From: Pseudarthrobacter psychrotolerans
Lineage (GTDB): Bacteria; Actinomycetota; Actinomycetes; Actinomycetales; Micrococcaceae
DNA length: 64,000 nt
NCBI RefSeq assembly: GCF_009911795.1
Contig: NZ_CP047898.1
Location: forward strand, 372,001 to 436,000
Direction: 5' to 3'
Shown: piece by piece, positions 2,341 through 13,234 of the stretch
How positions within the stretch are numbered: position 1 is the first letter of the stretch
How the letters are laid out: each line of letters starts with the position of its first letter
Program-made: the position numbers and the translations under genes
The notes under the pieces: model-generated
The model's input: only the letters and a program-made list of their open reading frames with translations
The model's database searches: none
What the model was told of the DNA's origin: nothing

Positions 2341-3063
2341 ATGGCGGGGCCGGTGAGGGCGGGGCCGGCACGAGAGATGGCCGAGCCGGGCTCGATAGTG
2401 CCGGTCCTGCGTTCCTGCCCTCCCGGATTACCGGGAGGGCAGCCCCCGACGGCGGGAGGCCAGCCGGCAGGGCTGGGGCCCGCCGAGCTGGCCCGCGCCG
2501 CCGCCCTGGCGCCCGGCCCACGGGCCGTTTTTGTGGCGGGCCGGCGTGCCCTGCGAACGTTCGCAGCAGAACTGCTGGACGTCCCGGCGGCGGACCTCAC
2601 CACGCACTTCAGCTGCCCCCGGTGCGGCGCCGGCCCCGAGCTGTCGCACGGCAGGCCCGGGTATTCACTCAAGGGCGAGCCGGTGCCCCTCGCACTGAGC
2701 CTGTCCCGGAGTTCCGGCTGGATCCTGCTGGGCGCCGTGATGGAGTCACGGGCCGGAGTCACCATGGGCGTGGACCTGGCGGACCCGGCTGGCATGGACT
2801 TCGAAGGGTTCGACGGAGTGGCCCTCACCGCCGCCGAGCGCGCGGCCCTCGCCGGGCTGGCCGGACCTGTGCTGCTGCAGGAGCGGGCACGGCTCTGGGC
2901 GCGCAAGGAAGCCTGGCTCAAGATGACGGGAGACGGCCTCGTTACCGCCCCGGACACCCTCGACGTTCTGTCCCGCCCGGAAATCCGGGACCTGGCCGCC
3001 GGCGAGGCGGGCCTCCCGCTCTACCTTCGCGCCGCCGTCGCGGTTTCACGAACCGGCAGGTAG
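2341..3063 (+). CDS. 4'-phosphopantetheinyl transferase superfamily protein
   Basis: Likely transfers phosphopantetheine from CoA to the serine of a carrier domain. The C-terminal half shows the Sfp-type metal and catalytic signatures: GVDLADP (usual GIDIE/GVDVE; here the acidic pair is D..D) near residue 142, and WARKEAWLKMTGDGL (usual WTRKEAxLKxxG) near residue 186. At 240 aa it has the usual length for a single-chain Sfp/EntD-like enzyme. The first 50 residues are rich in Pro and Gly, and the ATG at 2341 lacks a clear ribosome binding site, so the true start could be further in. It follows pheT by 12 bp and converges on the Pls/M1 pair. The Pls-like synthetase next door has a carrier domain that needs this modification, so it is the obvious client (inference). 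Confidence 0.8.
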   Translation: MAGPVRAGPAREMAEPGSIVPVLRSCPPGLPGGQPPTAGGQPAGLGPAELARAAALAPGPRAVFVAGRRALRTFAAELLDVPAADLTTHFSCPRCGAGPELSHGRPGYSLKGEPVPLALSLSRSSGWILLGAVMESRAGVTMGVDLADPAGMDFEGFDGVALTAAERAALAGLAGPVLLQERARLWARKEAWLKMTGDGLVTAPDTLDVLSRPEIRDLAAGEAGLPLYLRAAVAVSRTGR

Positions 3064-3143
3064 CGCGCCGGACGGTAGGAGAGCTGCTGCCTGTCACCGT
3101 ACAGTGTCTGTCTAGCGCACCCACCCGTCAGTGCATGGGCCTG

Positions 3144-4523
3144 TCAGCGGACCGGCAGGGGCGGAAGGGCCGCCTCGAGCAGCCACGGGTGCAGCAGAGC
3201 CTCAGTGTCCAGGCCGGTGGCCCGGTCCGCGGCGAGGATAAAGGCCGCCGTGGACACCGAACCGTGACGGTGGGCATCCGTCCAGTCGTGTAACAGCGCA
3301 AAAAATGCCAGGTCGCCGCAGCGGATCCGCAGCGCATGCAGGGCCAAGGCCCCGCGCTTGTAGACGCGGTCATCAAACATCAGCTCCGGCCCGGGATCGC
3401 CCACGATGATGTCATGGCTGCCGGCGGCCAGCTTCCGCCAGGCTGCGGCGGCCCGGTCCGCGATGGGCAGGACGCCCGCTTCCTCGGACCAGATCCACTC
3501 CGCGTAGCAGGCGAAGCCCTCGTGGAGCCAGATGTCCGCCCAGGATGCGGCAGTGAGGGAGTTCCCGAACCACTGGTGCGCGAGCTCATGGGCGATGAGC
3601 CGCTGGGACTCCCACTCCTGCGTCAGGTGGTTCCGGCCCAGAATGGACAGCGTCTGCGCCTCAAGCGGTATTTCCAGCTCGTCTTCGGTCACCACCACGG
3701 AATATTCCGGGAACGGGTAGGGCCCGAAGCAGCTGGCAAAGGTGCGCATCATTTCCGGCTGCCTCGCCAGGCCGTCGCGGGCCGCGTCGACCAACAGCGC
3801 CGGGACAGCGGCGAACTGCGGAACCTGGCCGTCCACGGGGAAGGGAGTCAGCGCGAGGAACTCATACCGGCCGATCTGGACCGTGGCAAGGTAGGTGGCC
3901 ATGGGCTCCGCCTGCTCGTAGACCCAGGTCTCGCGGCTGGCCCTGCTGGTGTGGGAGATCAGCGTGCCGTTACATACGGCCCGGTAATTGGCGTCGGTGG
4001 TCACGCTGATTTTGTAGCTGGCCTTGTCGCCGGGGTGGTCGTTGCAGGGGAACCAGGAGGCGGCGCCGTTCGGCTGGCCAGCCACGAGGACGCCGTCGGT
4101 GAGTTCTTCCCAGCCCACCTCGCCCCAGAACCCGCGCCGGGGGGCAGGGTTGCCTTCGTAGCGGATGTCCAGGGTAAATTCCTCGCCTGCCGGCAGTGCG
4201 GCTTCGGGCACAATGACCAACTGTCCCGCGCGCTGGCTGAACTTCTTTACCCGGCGCCCGCTGAGCTGGATCTTCGTGGCCCGGAGCCCGGTCAGGTCCA
4301 GCACCACGGCCGCCGTCGCATACTGGGTGACGGCGCTGAGGACCGCGCGCCCGCTCAGGCGGTTGCTGCTGAGCTTGTAGTCAAGGTCCAGTTCGTAGCG
4401 GCTGACTTTGTACGCGTTCGTGCCATGGCCCGGCATATAGGGATCAGGTGCTGAAGCATCCTGCTCCGACGTGCGGGCGGGGCCGGTACTCGCGGCCGTC
4501 GGGCTCGGTACGGGGGAACTCAT
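3144..4523 (-). CDS. M1 family zinc metallopeptidase (aminopeptidase N-like, short form)
   Basis: Zinc aminopeptidase of the gluzincin clan. Visible: HELAHQWFGN at residues 312-321 (zinc ligands H312 and H316, catalytic E313), the third ligand E335 in WLHEGFACY, a PLEAQT segment around 286-291 where other M1 enzymes have GAMEN, and a YKRG segment near 388 that would supply the transition-state tyrosine. At 459 aa it has only the N-terminal beta domain and catalytic domain, without the long C-terminal helical domain of PepN. No signal peptide is seen, so it is probably cytoplasmic. It lies 51 bp downstream of the Pls-type synthetase on the same strand, so co-transcription is likely. From memory, epsilon-poly-lysine-degrading enzymes of Streptomyces are zinc aminopeptidases; a role in trimming or self-protection is inference. 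Confidence 0.9.
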   Translation of the reverse strand: MSSPVPSPTAASTGPARTSEQDASAPDPYMPGHGTNAYKVSRYELDLDYKLSSNRLSGRAVLSAVTQYATAAVVLDLTGLRATKIQLSGRRVKKFSQRAGQLVIVPEAALPAGEEFTLDIRYEGNPAPRRGFWGEVGWEELTDGVLVAGQPNGAASWFPCNDHPGDKASYKISVTTDANYRAVCNGTLISHTSRASRETWVYEQAEPMATYLATVQIGRYEFLALTPFPVDGQVPQFAAVPALLVDAARDGLARQPEMMRTFASCFGPYPFPEYSVVVTEDELEIPLEAQTLSILGRNHLTQEWESQRLIAHELAHQWFGNSLTAASWADIWLHEGFACYAEWIWSEEAGVLPIADRAAAAWRKLAAGSHDIIVGDPGPELMFDDRVYKRGALALHALRIRCGDLAFFALLHDWTDAHRHGSVSTAAFILAADRATGLDTEALLHPWLLEAALPPLPVR

Positions 4524-4574
4524 AAGACGGTCTTTCTGATCAGCGTAGGGCGGCGGGACAGCTGGTACTGCGGG

Positions 4575-7500
4575 CTACCGTGGTTTGGGAGCGGACTCTG
4601 CGGGACCGCTCCAGGGGCTCACCGGGTTACCCATCCAATAGGTCGCGGCTGGAACCGATTCGCCCCGCATCACCAGTGACGCCGGTCCAACGGTTCCACC
4701 GGCTCCGATGCTGGCCTGCGGCAGGATGACACCGTGGGGCCCCATGGTTGCACCGTCTTCGAGGGTAACAGTGTCCAGGCTCATGACGCGGTCGTGGAAC
4801 AGGTGCGTCTGGACCACGCAGCCCCGGTTGACGGTGGAGTTCCGACCGAGCGTGACCAGGTCAGCTTCCGGAAGCCAATAGCTCTCGCACCACGTGCCGC
4901 GGCCGATCCGTGCGCCAAGCGCCCGGAGCCACCAGACCAGGGCCGGCGTCCCGGTGGCTGCACGCGCGAACCAGGGGGCGCTGACCATCTCGATAAACGT
5001 GTCCACCACCTCGTTGCGCCAGATGAAGGAGCTCCAGAGCGGGTGCTCGCCGGCACGGATCCGTCCCACGAGGACCCATTTGGCGACGACGGCGCTGCCC
5101 GCGGCCACCGCGCCCGCCAGCAGCATCACGACCCCGCCCAAGGCTGCAGCAATCCCGTAGTTGTATGCGGCGGCCAGCCAGTCGAAGGCAAGCATCACGC
5201 CTGCGGCGATCGCCACCGTGGCCACGACGGGGATGAAGCGGCCCAGTTCCCAGAGGCAGCGGGCAAACTTGAGCCGCAACGGCGGCTGGTAGGTGCGTGT
5301 GTCGTCCGAGGCGATGGCGGTACGCCGGAGCCGCACCGGCGGGCTGCCCAGCCACGACGTCCCGGACTTTGCCTTGGCGGGGGTGGCCGACAATACGGCG
5401 ACGAGTGAGTTCTTGGGGACGTTCCGGCCGGCGGCGGTCATGCCGGAGTTGCCCAGGAAGGAGCGCTTGCCGATCTTCGCGGGCGCAATCCGCAGCCACC
5501 CGCCGTCGAGCTCGTAGGAGGCCACCGTGGTGTCGTCGGCCAGGAAGGCGCCCTCGCCCACGGTTGTCATCTTGGGGATGAGCAGGACGGTGGAGGCTTC
5601 GACGTTCTTGCCGATCTTGGCGCCGAGGAGGCGCAGCCAGACCGGAGTGAAGAGGCTGGCGTAGATCGGGAAGAGCAGGTCGCGGGCGAGGTCCAGCACA
5701 CGTTCCGTGGCCCAGACCTGCCAGCCGATCCGGCTGCGGACCCGGTAGTACCCCTCCGCCAGACCGATGCCGAGCAACCGGGTGGTGGCCAGAATGAGCA
5801 GCAGGTTGACGACGAACCACACCAAGGCCGCGGGTCCGAGGGCGAGCAGGAGCTGCGGGACGGCGGCGGAGAGTGATTCACTGCCGCGGATGAAGCCAAA
5901 GGCCACCAGCGCCGCGGCGGCAGCGGAGACGTAAGGGATCAGGGCCAGCACGGCCGAAGCCACGGCGAATCCGGCGAACCAGAGCCGGCCGATCAGCCGA
6001 TGTTCTGCGGGAGTGTCCGGCACCGAGTGCTTGGCCTTGCCCCGGCGCTCGGCCGGCGAACCGGCAACGTGGTGGCCGGCCTTCACCTTGCCGAGGACCG
6101 CCGAGCCCGGCTCCACCTGGGCTCCGGCGCCGATGGAAGCGCCGGGCATCAGCGTGCTGCGCGCCCCGACGCTGGCTCCTGCCCCGATGTGGACGGCTCC
6201 GATGTGGACGATGTCCCCGTCGATCCACCAACCGGAAAGGTCCACTTCAGGCTCAATGTTGGAGCCACTGCCGAGGGAAAGCAGTCCGGTAACCGGGGGA
6301 AGCGAGTGCAGCTGGACGTTGTTGCCGATCCTGGCGCCCAGCGCCCGGGCGTAGTACGGCACCCACGGTGCGCTGGCGAGGCTGATGGCGCCGGCGAGGT
6401 CCTGGATCTGTTCGGCCAGCCAGAGGCGCAGGTGTACCCGCCCGGAGCGCGGGTACGTTCCCGGCCCCACCTTCCGGAGCAGGATCCGGGCCGCGGCCAC
6501 GGAAATCAGCGTCCGTCCGGCCGGGGAGACGAAGACGAGCCAGGAGGCGGCCACCCACCACCAGGAAACGGTGGGGGCGGCACTGAAGCCGGCCAAGGCA
6601 GCCAGCACCTTATTAGCCGCCATGAGGTAGGTCAGCCAGCGCATCCCCACCAGGATGTGCAAGGGAATGCCCATCAGCGTCTGGAAGACCTGGGACTTGA
6701 ACGCGGTGGGGCGCACGGTCCTGGACGGCGCCGGTCCGGCCGGCACGCCGTCGGGAAGTGTCTGGCGGGCCGCATCAATCAGGGCCCCGATCCTGGGCGT
6801 GGCGTAGATGTCGGCGACCGTGATGGTCGGGTACCGGCCCCTGAGGGCGGAGACCAGCTGGGCAGCGGACAGCGAGCCGCCGCCGTAGGCGAAGAAGTCG
6901 GCGTCGAGGCTTGATACGGGGCTGCCAAGGATGGCAGTCCACTGTTCGGCCACCCAGGCGGCATCTTCCGGCAGGTTCAACGGGGCAGCGTCAGCCTCCG
7001 CCGCACCCGTCCCGGCAAGTGGCCAGGGCAGTGCGTGACGGTCCACCTTGCCGCTGGTTTTGGTAGGCAGGGAATCGACGACGGTCAGCAGCGGAATGAG
7101 CGGTGCGGGCAGGCTTGCCGCCAGGAGTTCGCGGGCGGCCACCAGATCCAGGTCCGCATCAGCAGCGGCCAGGTATCCCACCAGGATCTGGTTGCCGGCC
7201 GCGGTTGTCTGGACGGCCGCCGCCGCTCCGGCGACGTGGGGGAGGGCCTGCAGGGCGGCGTCAATTTCGCCCAGTTCGATCCGGCGTCCGCCGAGCTTGA
7301 CCTGTTCGTCGGCGCGGCCCATAAAGATCAGTCCGGCGGCTTCGTAGCGGACCAGGTCGCCCGAACGGTAGGCGCGCTGCCAGCCGAAGGACGGCATGGG
7401 CGCGTACTTCTCCCGGTCCTTGTCCGGGTCAAGGTAACGGGCCAGTCCGACGCCGCCGATGATCAGTTCGCCGATGTCCCCTTCGCTGACGGGCAGTCCT

Positions 7501-8564
7501 TCAGCGTCCACTACGGCCAGGTCCCAGCCGTCCAGCGGCAGCCCGATCCGGACCGGCCCGGGACCACCCAGGGGAGCAGCGCAGGCCACGACCGTGGCTT
7601 CCGTGGGGCCGTAGGTGTTCCAGACTTCGCGGCCCGGGACGGCAAGCCGCTCTGCGAGCTCGGGCGGGCAGGCCTCGCCGCCGAAAATCAGCAGGCGGAC
7701 GCTCTCCAGGGACTCGGCCGGCCAGAGGGCAGCCAAGGTAGGGACCGTGGACACGGCGGTGATGCCGTGACTGATGAGCCACGGACCGAGGTCTGTTCCT
7801 GTCCTGACCAGGGCACGCGGCGCGGGCACCAGGCAGGCACCATGACGCCAGGCCAGCCACATCTCCTCGCACGAGGCATCAAAGGCGACGGAAAGCCCGG
7901 CCAGCACCCTGTCCTGCGGGCCGAGGGGTTCTCCCCGGAGGAAGATCCGGGCTTCGGCGTCAACAAAGGCCGCGGCCGAGCGGTGCTGGACGGCGACGCC
8001 CTTGGGCGTGCCGGTGGACCCGGAGGTAAAGATCACCCAGGCGTCATCGCCGGGCTCGGCAGCACGGCTTTCGGCTTCACGGCGCTCGGCAGAACGGTGC
8101 TCAGCGCCACGGCCGTCTTCGGTTGGCCGGGAGGCCGGGACAATGACCGCGGCCCCGCCGGTGAGGACGGTGGCCACGCGTGCCTCGCCGAAGACGAGCC
8201 GTGCACGTTCCTCGGGGTCGTCGGCGTCCACGGGCACGTAGGCGGCGCCGATGTGCAGGATCGCGAGAATCGAGATGTAGAGCTCATTGGTCCCGGACGG
8301 AATCCGCACGCCGATCCTGTCGCCGGCGCCCAGTCCGGCGGCCCGGAGCTCCCGCCCTTTGGCCCGGACCGCGGCCATCAGGTCGGCGTAGCTCAGGGAG
8401 CGCCGGCCGTCGTCGAGCGCCGATGCCTCCGGGAAGCGGGTGGCCGATTCCGCCAGGATGGCCATGAGCGTCCGCTCGGGCGGGGCCAGGGGCAAACCGG
8501 CCAGCTGGGGGCGGTATAGATCTTCCGGCCGGGATGCCACGACGTTTGACTGATGCTCACTCAC
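4575..8564 (-). CDS. Pls-type non-ribosomal peptide synthetase (epsilon-poly-lysine synthetase-like), membrane-bound
   Basis: 1329 aa with the Pls layout. (1) Adenylation domain, about residues 30-515: VIFTSGSTGTPKG near 176, FDASCEEMW near 229, NTYGPTEATV near 316, YRSGD near 400, LPTKTSGKVDRHALP near 500. (2) Carrier domain, about 530-600, with DADFFAYGGGSL; the serine near 564 accepts phosphopantetheine. (3) Three pairs of membrane segments (about 625-690, 865-935, 1105-1175) alternating with three tandem soluble domains carrying hexapeptide (left-handed beta-helix) repeats such as IGAVHIGAGASVG. No condensation or thioesterase domain is present. The length nearly equals that I recall for Streptomyces albulus Pls (1319 aa), and the A-domain segment AGLSVAFDASCEEMWLAW is typical of that enzyme. 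The Glu in DASCEE suits a basic substrate. Product (poly-lysine or other homopoly-amino acid) cannot be fixed from sequence. Start is GTG at 8564. Confidence 0.88.
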   Translation of the reverse strand: MSEHQSNVVASRPEDLYRPQLAGLPLAPPERTLMAILAESATRFPEASALDDGRRSLSYADLMAAVRAKGRELRAAGLGAGDRIGVRIPSGTNELYISILAILHIGAAYVPVDADDPEERARLVFGEARVATVLTGGAAVIVPASRPTEDGRGAEHRSAERREAESRAAEPGDDAWVIFTSGSTGTPKGVAVQHRSAAAFVDAEARIFLRGEPLGPQDRVLAGLSVAFDASCEEMWLAWRHGACLVPAPRALVRTGTDLGPWLISHGITAVSTVPTLAALWPAESLESVRLLIFGGEACPPELAERLAVPGREVWNTYGPTEATVVACAAPLGGPGPVRIGLPLDGWDLAVVDAEGLPVSEGDIGELIIGGVGLARYLDPDKDREKYAPMPSFGWQRAYRSGDLVRYEAAGLIFMGRADEQVKLGGRRIELGEIDAALQALPHVAGAAAAVQTTAAGNQILVGYLAAADADLDLVAARELLAASLPAPLIPLLTVVDSLPTKTSGKVDRHALPWPLAGTGAAEADAAPLNLPEDAAWVAEQWTAILGSPVSSLDADFFAYGGGSLSAAQLVSALRGRYPTITVADIYATPRIGALIDAARQTLPDGVPAGPAPSRTVRPTAFKSQVFQTLMGIPLHILVGMRWLTYLMAANKVLAALAGFSAAPTVSWWWVAASWLVFVSPAGRTLISVAAARILLRKVGPGTYPRSGRVHLRLWLAEQIQDLAGAISLASAPWVPYYARALGARIGNNVQLHSLPPVTGLLSLGSGSNIEPEVDLSGWWIDGDIVHIGAVHIGAGASVGARSTLMPGASIGAGAQVEPGSAVLGKVKAGHHVAGSPAERRGKAKHSVPDTPAEHRLIGRLWFAGFAVASAVLALIPYVSAAAAALVAFGFIRGSESLSAAVPQLLLALGPAALVWFVVNLLLILATTRLLGIGLAEGYYRVRSRIGWQVWATERVLDLARDLLFPIYASLFTPVWLRLLGAKIGKNVEASTVLLIPKMTTVGEGAFLADDTTVASYELDGGWLRIAPAKIGKRSFLGNSGMTAAGRNVPKNSLVAVLSATPAKAKSGTSWLGSPPVRLRRTAIASDDTRTYQPPLRLKFARCLWELGRFIPVVATVAIAAGVMLAFDWLAAAYNYGIAAALGGVVMLLAGAVAAGSAVVAKWVLVGRIRAGEHPLWSSFIWRNEVVDTFIEMVSAPWFARAATGTPALVWWLRALGARIGRGTWCESYWLPEADLVTLGRNSTVNRGCVVQTHLFHDRVMSLDTVTLEDGATMGPHGVILPQASIGAGGTVGPASLVMRGESVPAATYWMGNPVSPWSGPAESAPKPR

Positions 8565-8650: not shown

Positions 8651-9613
8651 TCAGGGAACCAGCAGGACCTTGCCCGTGGTGCGCCTGCCCTCGAGGTCCT
8701 CGTGGGCACGTCGCGCTTCGGCGAGGGGGTACGTGGCACCGATCCGGACCTTCAGGCTTCCGTCGGCTACCGCACCAAAGACCTCGCTGGAGCGCCACCG
8801 CCGTTCCTGCGGGTTGGCGAGGAAATGCGCCAGTGTCGGCCGCGTGAGGGAGAGCGAGCCGCCCGCGTTGAGCCGCTGCGGATCCACCGGCGGCACAGCG
8901 CCGGAGGCTGCCCCGAACAGGACGAGGAAGCCGCGGGTCCGCAGGCTGGCAAGCGAGCCGTCGAACGTGTCTTTCCCGACGCCGTCGTACACCACCTGGA
9001 CGCCGACGCCGTCGGTGAGGTCACGGACTGCTTCAGCGAATCCGTCATAGCGGAGCACAACGTCCGCGCCGGCTCCCTTGGCCAGGGCTTCCTTCTCGTC
9101 CGTGGACACTGTGGTGATAACCCGGGCTCCGCGGGCCTTCAGGAGCTGGGTAATCAGCAGACCTACACCGCCGGCACCGGCGTGGACCAAGACGGTTTGG
9201 CCGGGCTCCACCTTGAAGGATGAGTTGATCAGGTAATGGGCTGTCATGCCCTGGAGGGGTAACGCAGCCGCCGTCAAGAGGTCCACGCCATCCGGTACCG
9301 GGAGGGCTTTCGCAGCGTCCAGCACGGTGTAGCCTGCGTAGCATTGCTGGCCCTCGGCCGTTGCAACCCGGCTCCCGACGGTGAAGCCCTCAACGCCCTC
9401 GCCGATTTCCTCGACGACGCCCGCTGCTTCGGCGCCCGGTATGAATGGATGGGCAACCTTGTACATGCCGCCGCGCTGGTACGTCTCAATGAAATTGACG
9501 CCCGTGGCCGCGACTTTGATGAGCAACTGGCCGGGGCCGGGCGTCGGCCGGTCCACCTCGGCGAGCTCGAGGACTTCCGGGCCTCCGGGCTGGCGGACAA
9601 CGATGGCATGCAT
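8651..9613 (-). CDS. NADPH:quinone oxidoreductase (zeta-crystallin-like MDR family)
   Basis: Medium-chain dehydrogenase/reductase that reduces quinones with NADPH; the family has no catalytic zinc. Evidence: GroES-like N-terminus (MHAIVVRQPGGPEVLEL), GVNFIETYQRGGMY typical of Qor, nucleotide-binding VLVHAGAGGVGLLITQL, and C-terminal PLAEARRAHEDLEGR. I placed the start at the ATG at 9613, preceded by GAGGAG at good spacing, giving 320 aa, the usual size; the frame extends upstream to 9727 but without family similarity. It lies 86 bp upstream of the Pls-type gene on the same strand. A functional link to that gene is not evident. Confidence 0.93.
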   Translation of the reverse strand: MHAIVVRQPGGPEVLELAEVDRPTPGPGQLLIKVAATGVNFIETYQRGGMYKVAHPFIPGAEAAGVVEEIGEGVEGFTVGSRVATAEGQQCYAGYTVLDAAKALPVPDGVDLLTAAALPLQGMTAHYLINSSFKVEPGQTVLVHAGAGGVGLLITQLLKARGARVITTVSTDEKEALAKGAGADVVLRYDGFAEAVRDLTDGVGVQVVYDGVGKDTFDGSLASLRTRGFLVLFGAASGAVPPVDPQRLNAGGSLSLTRPTLAHFLANPQERRWRSSEVFGAVADGSLKVRIGATYPLAEARRAHEDLEGRRTTGKVLLVP

Positions 9614-9775
9614 AAAGGGTCTCCTCTCCGGGCGGGGATTTCCCGCAGCCGGTGTCTCTGACCATCCTAGGGATACCGCTACCGACGACGAAGCGACGGC
9701 CGGTAGCCGGCCGTCGCTTCGGGTCATACGGGGGAAGAATCATGCGGGGGAGCCGCGTGATTCGGAAGGTGCGTG

Positions 9776-13234
<3,459 letters not shown>

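Follow-up and report, generated by a model that had tools for sequence, protein, structure and literature searches.

Which polymer would be made by a compact group of three genes in Pseudarthrobacter psychrotolerans, a soil-dwelling member of the Arthrobacter group, and do these genes belong together as one functional unit? The group lies in a stretch of 64,000 nucleotides (contig NZ_CP047898.1 of assembly GCF_009911795.1, positions 372,001 to 436,000 of the forward strand; hereafter the window) and comprises pls, which encodes a synthetase of the Pls/PosA family, a gene for an M1 zinc metallopeptidase and a gene for an Sfp-type 4'-phosphopantetheinyl transferase (PPTase). It is very probably a make/degrade/activate cassette for epsilon-poly-L-lysine, in which a single-module membrane Pls would be joined by a polymer-degrading M1 enzyme of the PldII type and by a PPTase that primes Pls. 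Epsilon-polylysine is an antimicrobial polymer used as an industrial food preservative and is produced mainly with Streptomyces. An earlier note, made from the sequence of the window, had proposed a compact make/degrade/activate locus for a cationic homopolymer; this proposal is supported, with the amendment that the adenylation pocket narrows the substrate to lysine. A broader interpretation, which is rather likely but held with less confidence, is that in the Arthrobacter group the polylysine genes form a three-gene, mobile-like cassette with an activating enzyme of its own. In this view the sole Sfp-type PPTase of the genome would be there to prime Pls, and pls and Sfp-type phosphopantetheinylation would nearly always be gained and lost together, usually at one site. 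The Pls chemistry and the PldII activity are assigned here on the basis of sequence, gene order and the identical pocket; in relatives they have been shown experimentally, namely in Streptomyces albulus and, for the Pls of Corynebacterium variabile, by heterologous expression (PMC8117764).

The synthetase had been described in the earlier note as a protein with a single adenylation domain, a single carrier domain and neither a condensation nor a thioesterase domain. This is borne out by its open reading frame, by Pfam (one AMP-binding domain at residues 38-376, one PP-binding domain at 537-598, and no condensation or thioesterase family at E ≤ 0.001) and by the NCBIfam model TIGR02353 of the Pls/PosA family, which scores 701.9 bits over the C-terminal region (626-1315; cut-off 423.1) and has no other match over the cut-off genome-wide. 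The carrier motif FAYGGGSL begins at residue 558, with Ser564 in the carrier. In the C-terminal half, three tandem repeats are marked by LGA[RK]IG at residues 740, 978 and 1214, and hydrophobic stretches at about 626-699, 858-940 and 1098-1171 fit three helix pairs by family-mean hydropathy only, the second and third pairs being clear and the first the weakest. Of the three tandem hexapeptide domains claimed in the note, a single stretch exceeds the Pfam cut-off; the count of three comes from the repeat motif together with the family model.

The monomer is indicated by the adenylation domain. The best match of Pls in the PDB is 7WEW, the solved adenylation domain of the S. albulus epsilon-poly-L-lysine synthetase, with 621.7 bits for the whole protein and 618 for the adenylation domain, in which 309 of 472 residues are identical (65%). 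With positions set by the GrsA convention, the ten pocket residues of Pls read DAESIGTVVK, the same as in 7WEW. All 97 sequences compared have this pocket (the window, 7WEW and loci L013-L107, 95 in number, where L013 is the gene of the window itself), as do 40 of 40 loci drawn from other parts of the class. Because of this identity, L-lysine is the predicted monomer. The note had named a pocket unfit for a basic amino acid as evidence that would count against its proposal; the pocket found is that of a lysine-activating enzyme.

The second gene of the group was described in the note as an M1 zinc aminopeptidase 51 bp downstream of pls, which is accurate: the protein matches PF17900 and PF01433, its zinc site HELAHQW...E (the HExxH...E motif) is intact at residues 312-335, and the gap to pls spans positions 4524-4574. 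The note had also held that the absence of this gene beside close homologues of pls would be telling, and it is present there throughout. It lies downstream of pls on the same strand in 80 of the 80 best loci of named genomes (the best 80 of at least 595 related stretches) and in 95 of 95 of the loci L013-L107, the window's own among them; in five loci the gap is wider, at 0.6-2.2 kb. A less similarity-biased set, 40 loci sampled from 92 pls-bearing genomes of the class outside the genus, has it downstream in 37, the exceptions being divergent (L161, L167 and L176); the genome of L161 (G523) encodes a PldII-grade M1 enzyme elsewhere. Moreover, in a class sample of 394 genomes, an M1 match of at least 345 bits, taken as PldII grade, occurs in 92 of the 95 genomes with a Pls adenylation domain (E ≤ 1e-120; G170, G382 and G528 lack it) and in 0 of the 299 others, and enzymes of the same subfamily that are unlinked to pls reach at most 316 bits. 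In genome G539, whose adenylation domain is 79% identical to 7WEW and which serves as a stand-in for S. albulus, the M1 enzyme downstream of pls is 44% identical to that of the window. S. albulus PldII is reported to degrade epsilon-poly-L-lysine and to be translationally coupled to pls (PMC9223678; PMC4361855). Judged by sequence and gene order, the M1 enzyme is the probable counterpart of PldII, the polylysine-degrading partner of pls.

A possible source of a polycation preference in the M1 enzymes was considered in an acidic signature near the active site. Residues 139, 140, 284, 371, 384 and 385 carry an acidic side chain in 92% or more of the 132 pls-linked enzymes and in no more than 10% of the 20 unlinked ones (79 and 12 after removal of near-copies); residue 284 sits four before E288, which is invariant in all 152 enzymes compared, and residues 384 and 385 stand three to four before Tyr388, the catalytic tyrosine of the family. 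The reverse comparison gives three positions that are acidic in the unlinked enzymes only and four basic positions specific to the linked ones, and the unlinked set is the more negative in net charge (median 13 against 9 in the linked set). For these reasons the signature is not clearly above ordinary divergence and is kept as a lead.

The third gene, the PPTase that the note had seen converging on the other two, matches PF01648 with 34.1 bits (cut-off 25) and carries the motifs GVD and WARKEAWLK. Many of its relatives align only from about residue 14-23, and its true start may be Met13 (position 2377). PF01648 is found in two genes of the genome, an AcpS-sized frame of 118 aa and the window gene, which is the only Sfp-type PPTase found in it. 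PF00550 carriers also number two, the carrier of Pls and an acyl carrier protein (ACP) encoded by a frame of 87 aa, so that Pls is the only non-ACP client visible. PosA, a relative of Pls, has been primed in vitro with Sfp (PMC10522769).

Beyond this genome, the association of the PPTase with Pls proves firmer than the mere proximity stated in the note. A set of 150 genomes of the genus contains 123 with a strong Pls match, including broken or fragmentary genes (e.g., G030, G053, G102, G131 and G141) and three genomes, G018, G073 and G095, whose only Pls is of a type 49-50% identical; 18 have a weak match only and nine have none, and these 27 are counted as Pls-negative, among them the incomplete assemblies G118 (63%) and G134 (68%). 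The PPTase protein is matched in 123 of 123 Pls-positive genomes as against 1 of 27 Pls-negative ones (G149), and two or more PF01648 genes are present in 122 of 123 (the exception, G027, is 68% complete) as against 1 of 27. Exactly two PF00550 carriers occur in 20 of the 123, the window's own genome included. Fisher's test for Pls and PPTase gives p 2.9e-28, uncorrected for kinship; because the genomes are related, kinship was taken into account with a tree built from pheT of 61 genomes, namely the 27 Pls-negative ones and 34 positive ones. Pls must have changed state 11 times or more on its well-supported branches (14 times on the best tree). Of 11 independent tree pairs, an average of 10.8 show the PPTase following Pls (p about 0.001, where G149 is scored as PPTase-positive). 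From this co-occurrence we infer that the PPTase is dedicated to Pls.

How the three genes come and go is best seen where they are missing. Pls-negative genomes keep the order pheT, quinone oxidoreductase-like gene (QOR), desaturase in some cases, and argC. QOR is found in 26 of the 27, the contig of the remaining one (G118) stopping after pheT, and it is ruled out as a cassette member because all 26 readable genomes retain it. The pheT and QOR matches are less than 170 bp apart in 22 of these 26, and in the other four (G001, G006, G029 and G112; loci L177, L178, L185 and L196) they are separated by 0.9-1.6 kb of other sequence; the interval contains no match to Pls, M1 or PPTase at E ≤ 1e-5 in any of the 26. 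Because of these empty sites, pls, pldII and the PPTase gene are seen as usually present or absent jointly between fixed neighbours. In 109 of the 123 genomes with Pls, no more than 9 kb separates the PPTase from a Pls, and 17 of 21 loci of named genomes with pheT in view show a PPTase match.

Three other explanations have been weighed. It is very unlikely that Pls makes a different cationic homopolymer, of ornithine, diaminobutyrate, diaminopropionate, arginine or beta-lysine. Such a product is conceivable since the Pls/PosA family contains enzymes for other cationic homopolymers (PMC10522769) and some members of the genus have a paralogue with the pocket DFECLSVVTK, in which position 2 is Phe as in the PDAP and PDAB enzymes. 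However, whereas the reported pockets are DMEHNGTVSK for PosA and have Phe at position 2 for the PDAP/PDAB enzymes (PMC10522769), the pocket of the window has Ala there, neither Phe nor Met, and is that of 7WEW; the PosA structures 8G95-8G98 score only about 192-194 bits on the adenylation domain, where 7WEW reaches 618 and several ordinary nonribosomal peptide synthetase modules also score higher than PosA. Moreover, the peptidase partner is a gene context reported to be unlike that of three other synthetases compared (PMC8117764). Other monomers were ruled out by the pocket identity to 7WEW. Even less probable is that the M1 enzyme is a housekeeping aminopeptidase with no relation to the polymer: M1 is a broad family, and the genome encodes two further, longer M1 enzymes elsewhere, but the class-wide distribution of PldII-grade enzymes, the order and strand conserved in all 95 loci and the published activity of PldII, a polymer-degrading enzyme adjoining pls (PMC4361855; PMC9223678), argue against such a role.

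The third explanation holds that the PPTase is only a bystander at pheT or works in another pathway, and that it disappears with pls because shared deletions happen to remove both; it is unlikely, though less so than the other two. The gene lies between pheT and pldII, so a single deletion could take all three genes, and 25 of the 27 Pls-negative genomes have two or three PF00550 carrier matches, showing that a second carrier alone needs no Sfp-type PPTase. Several observations also weigh against the cassette interpretation as such. In 14 of the 123 genomes no Pls is found within 9 kb of the PPTase (in eight of them the two are on different contigs), and no PPTase match is seen in 4 of the 21 pheT-containing loci of named genomes (L038, L053, L056 and L069). 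G018, G073 and G095 have the PPTase at pheT and their only Pls found, of the 49-50% type, elsewhere; this would fit a PPTase that had outlived a lost pls copy or that served this other Pls. Of the Pls-negative genomes, G149 has a marginal PPTase match (E 1.6e-4, 34% identity) and G099 carries a second PF01648 gene. Hydropathy shows neither a membrane nor an export segment in the M1 enzyme, whereas PldII has been reported to lie outside the membrane (PMC9223678), and C. variabile, with a functional pls, is reported to have given no detectable polymer in culture (PMC8117764), for which reason the locus of the window may likewise be silent. On the other side, the carrier of Pls is the only non-ACP one found in the genome of the window, a second PF01648 gene is absent from 26 of 27 Pls-negative genomes, and the 11 independent tree pairs are concordant for Pls and PPTase. 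In addition, eight genomes with Pls away from pheT (G009, G016, G021, G049, G062, G122, G130 and G135) still have a PPTase match near that Pls; for G009, G016, G021 and G135 the locus sequence itself was searched (L133-L136). The PPTase as a chance neighbour is thus disfavoured, and while G018, G073 and G095 break strict linkage, each of the 123 Pls genomes still has a PPTase match.

Other synthetases of the family were also seen in the genus. Loci L122, L123 and L125 (G014, G050 and G076) contain Pls/PosA paralogues about 30% identical to the window's Pls, with the pocket DFECLSVVTK, which makes them candidates for a second homopolymer in some genomes. A second Pls type, 47-49% identical to the window's and with the near-lysine pocket DAESIGTVIK, is present in L126-L129 (G095, G044, G018 and G073), without an M1 or PPTase match inside the stretches fetched. 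Lysine-type Pls proteins 71-74% identical to that of the window lie outside the pheT-argC site in L130-L136, with M1 downstream in six of the seven loci fetched, and three of these genomes (G148, G094 and G020) have an additional, closer Pls copy with a PPTase nearby.

In the polylysine cassette as proposed, the PPTase would attach phosphopantetheine to Ser564 of the Pls carrier, and the adenylation domain would activate L-lysine and load it onto the phosphopantetheine arm. The three membrane C-terminal domains would then couple lysines via the epsilon-amine and export the polymer. The M1 enzyme, probably co-transcribed with pls, would hydrolyse the polymer for self-protection or recycling.

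The arrangement of the genes is given in Table 1, where the gene at the left border is putatively pheT. Translation of pls starts at GTG, the PPTase gene begins 12 bp past the end of pheT, and the PPTase and M1 genes are convergent with 80 bp between them. Near relatives (L028, L029 and L033) have the identical order of the three genes, with dN/dS values of 0.08-0.09 for pls, 0.07-0.11 for M1 and 0.20-0.36 for the PPTase. The conserved order and the low dN/dS indicate that the set is not a product of chance, and this purifying selection supports that the genes are functional. Simple promoter and terminator scans gave no signal clearly above shuffled sequence.

Table 1. Genes of the predicted polylysine cassette and its borders (window positions).
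Feature	Positions	Strand	Remarks
pls, predicted epsilon-poly-L-lysine synthetase, 1329 aa	4575-8564	-	Adenylation region to about residue 512, carrier 537-598, Pls/PosA terminal region 626-1315
pldII-like M1 zinc metallopeptidase, 459 aa	3144-4523	-	51 bp 3' of pls, same strand
Sfp-type 4'-phosphopantetheinyl transferase (PPTase), 240 aa as called	2341-3063	+	PF01648
pheT, phenylalanyl-tRNA synthetase beta, C-terminal 775 aa	1-2328	+	Left border, outside the cassette
Quinone oxidoreductase-like gene (QOR)	8651-9727	-	Right border; also in Pls-negative genomes

Compared with known systems, the locus is closest to the Pls/PldII pair of S. albulus, with which it shares the architecture of adenylation, carrier and membrane domains, the lysine pocket of 7WEW and an M1 gene directly downstream on the same strand. 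In S. albulus, however, pls and pldII are reported to overlap by 4 bp (PMC4361855) instead of being 51 bp apart, and the site between pheT and argC and the attached PPTase are traits of the present locus. The Pls of C. variabile and its coryneform homologues, Arthrobacter included, belong to the same family and are described in an operon with a peptidase, in a survey of cheese and skin isolates (Jiang et al., 2021, PMC8117764). PosA, which makes delta-poly-L-ornithine, and the PDAP/PDAB synthetases have the overall architecture of the Pls/PosA superfamily and differ in their pocket residues and, for PosA, in the low structural match given above. In the close relative Pseudarthrobacter sp. So.54, antiSMASH predicted a non-alpha poly-amino-acid ('NAPAA') cluster, reported, in the available part of the source, with no gene-level analysis (PMC12025171). 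The statement of the earlier note that such a product is little described in Arthrobacter-type organisms is therefore only partly true, since the pls-pldII operon has been published for Streptomyces and Corynebacterium (PMC4361855; PMC9223678; PMC8117764) and Arthrobacter is already among the genera with Pls homologues (Jiang et al., 2021, PMC8117764). Titles and abstract openings of open-licence papers on polylysine and phosphopantetheinyl terms did not mention any link between a PPTase and pls, which is weak evidence of absence; the term 'phosphopantetheinyl' is absent from the main text of PMC8117764, and in PMC4361855 the sole passage on phosphopantetheinyl enzymes is a gene-ontology enrichment. 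The locus is an ordinary and well-supported representative of a known system, and its PPTase association is a useful feature that has apparently gone unremarked.

Pls genes are common in ordinary Arthrobacter-group bacteria, as 123 of the 150 genus genomes contain them, usually in a set compact enough to be gained or lost in one piece. The link to the PPTase suggests that heterologous Pls expression may sometimes fail without a matching PPTase. Because only one apparent non-ACP client is present in the genome, the dedication of the PPTase is open to a clean genetic test. Beyond the right border, at 9776-11871 on the minus strand, a fatty acid desaturase-like protein is apparently split across two overlapping reading frames.

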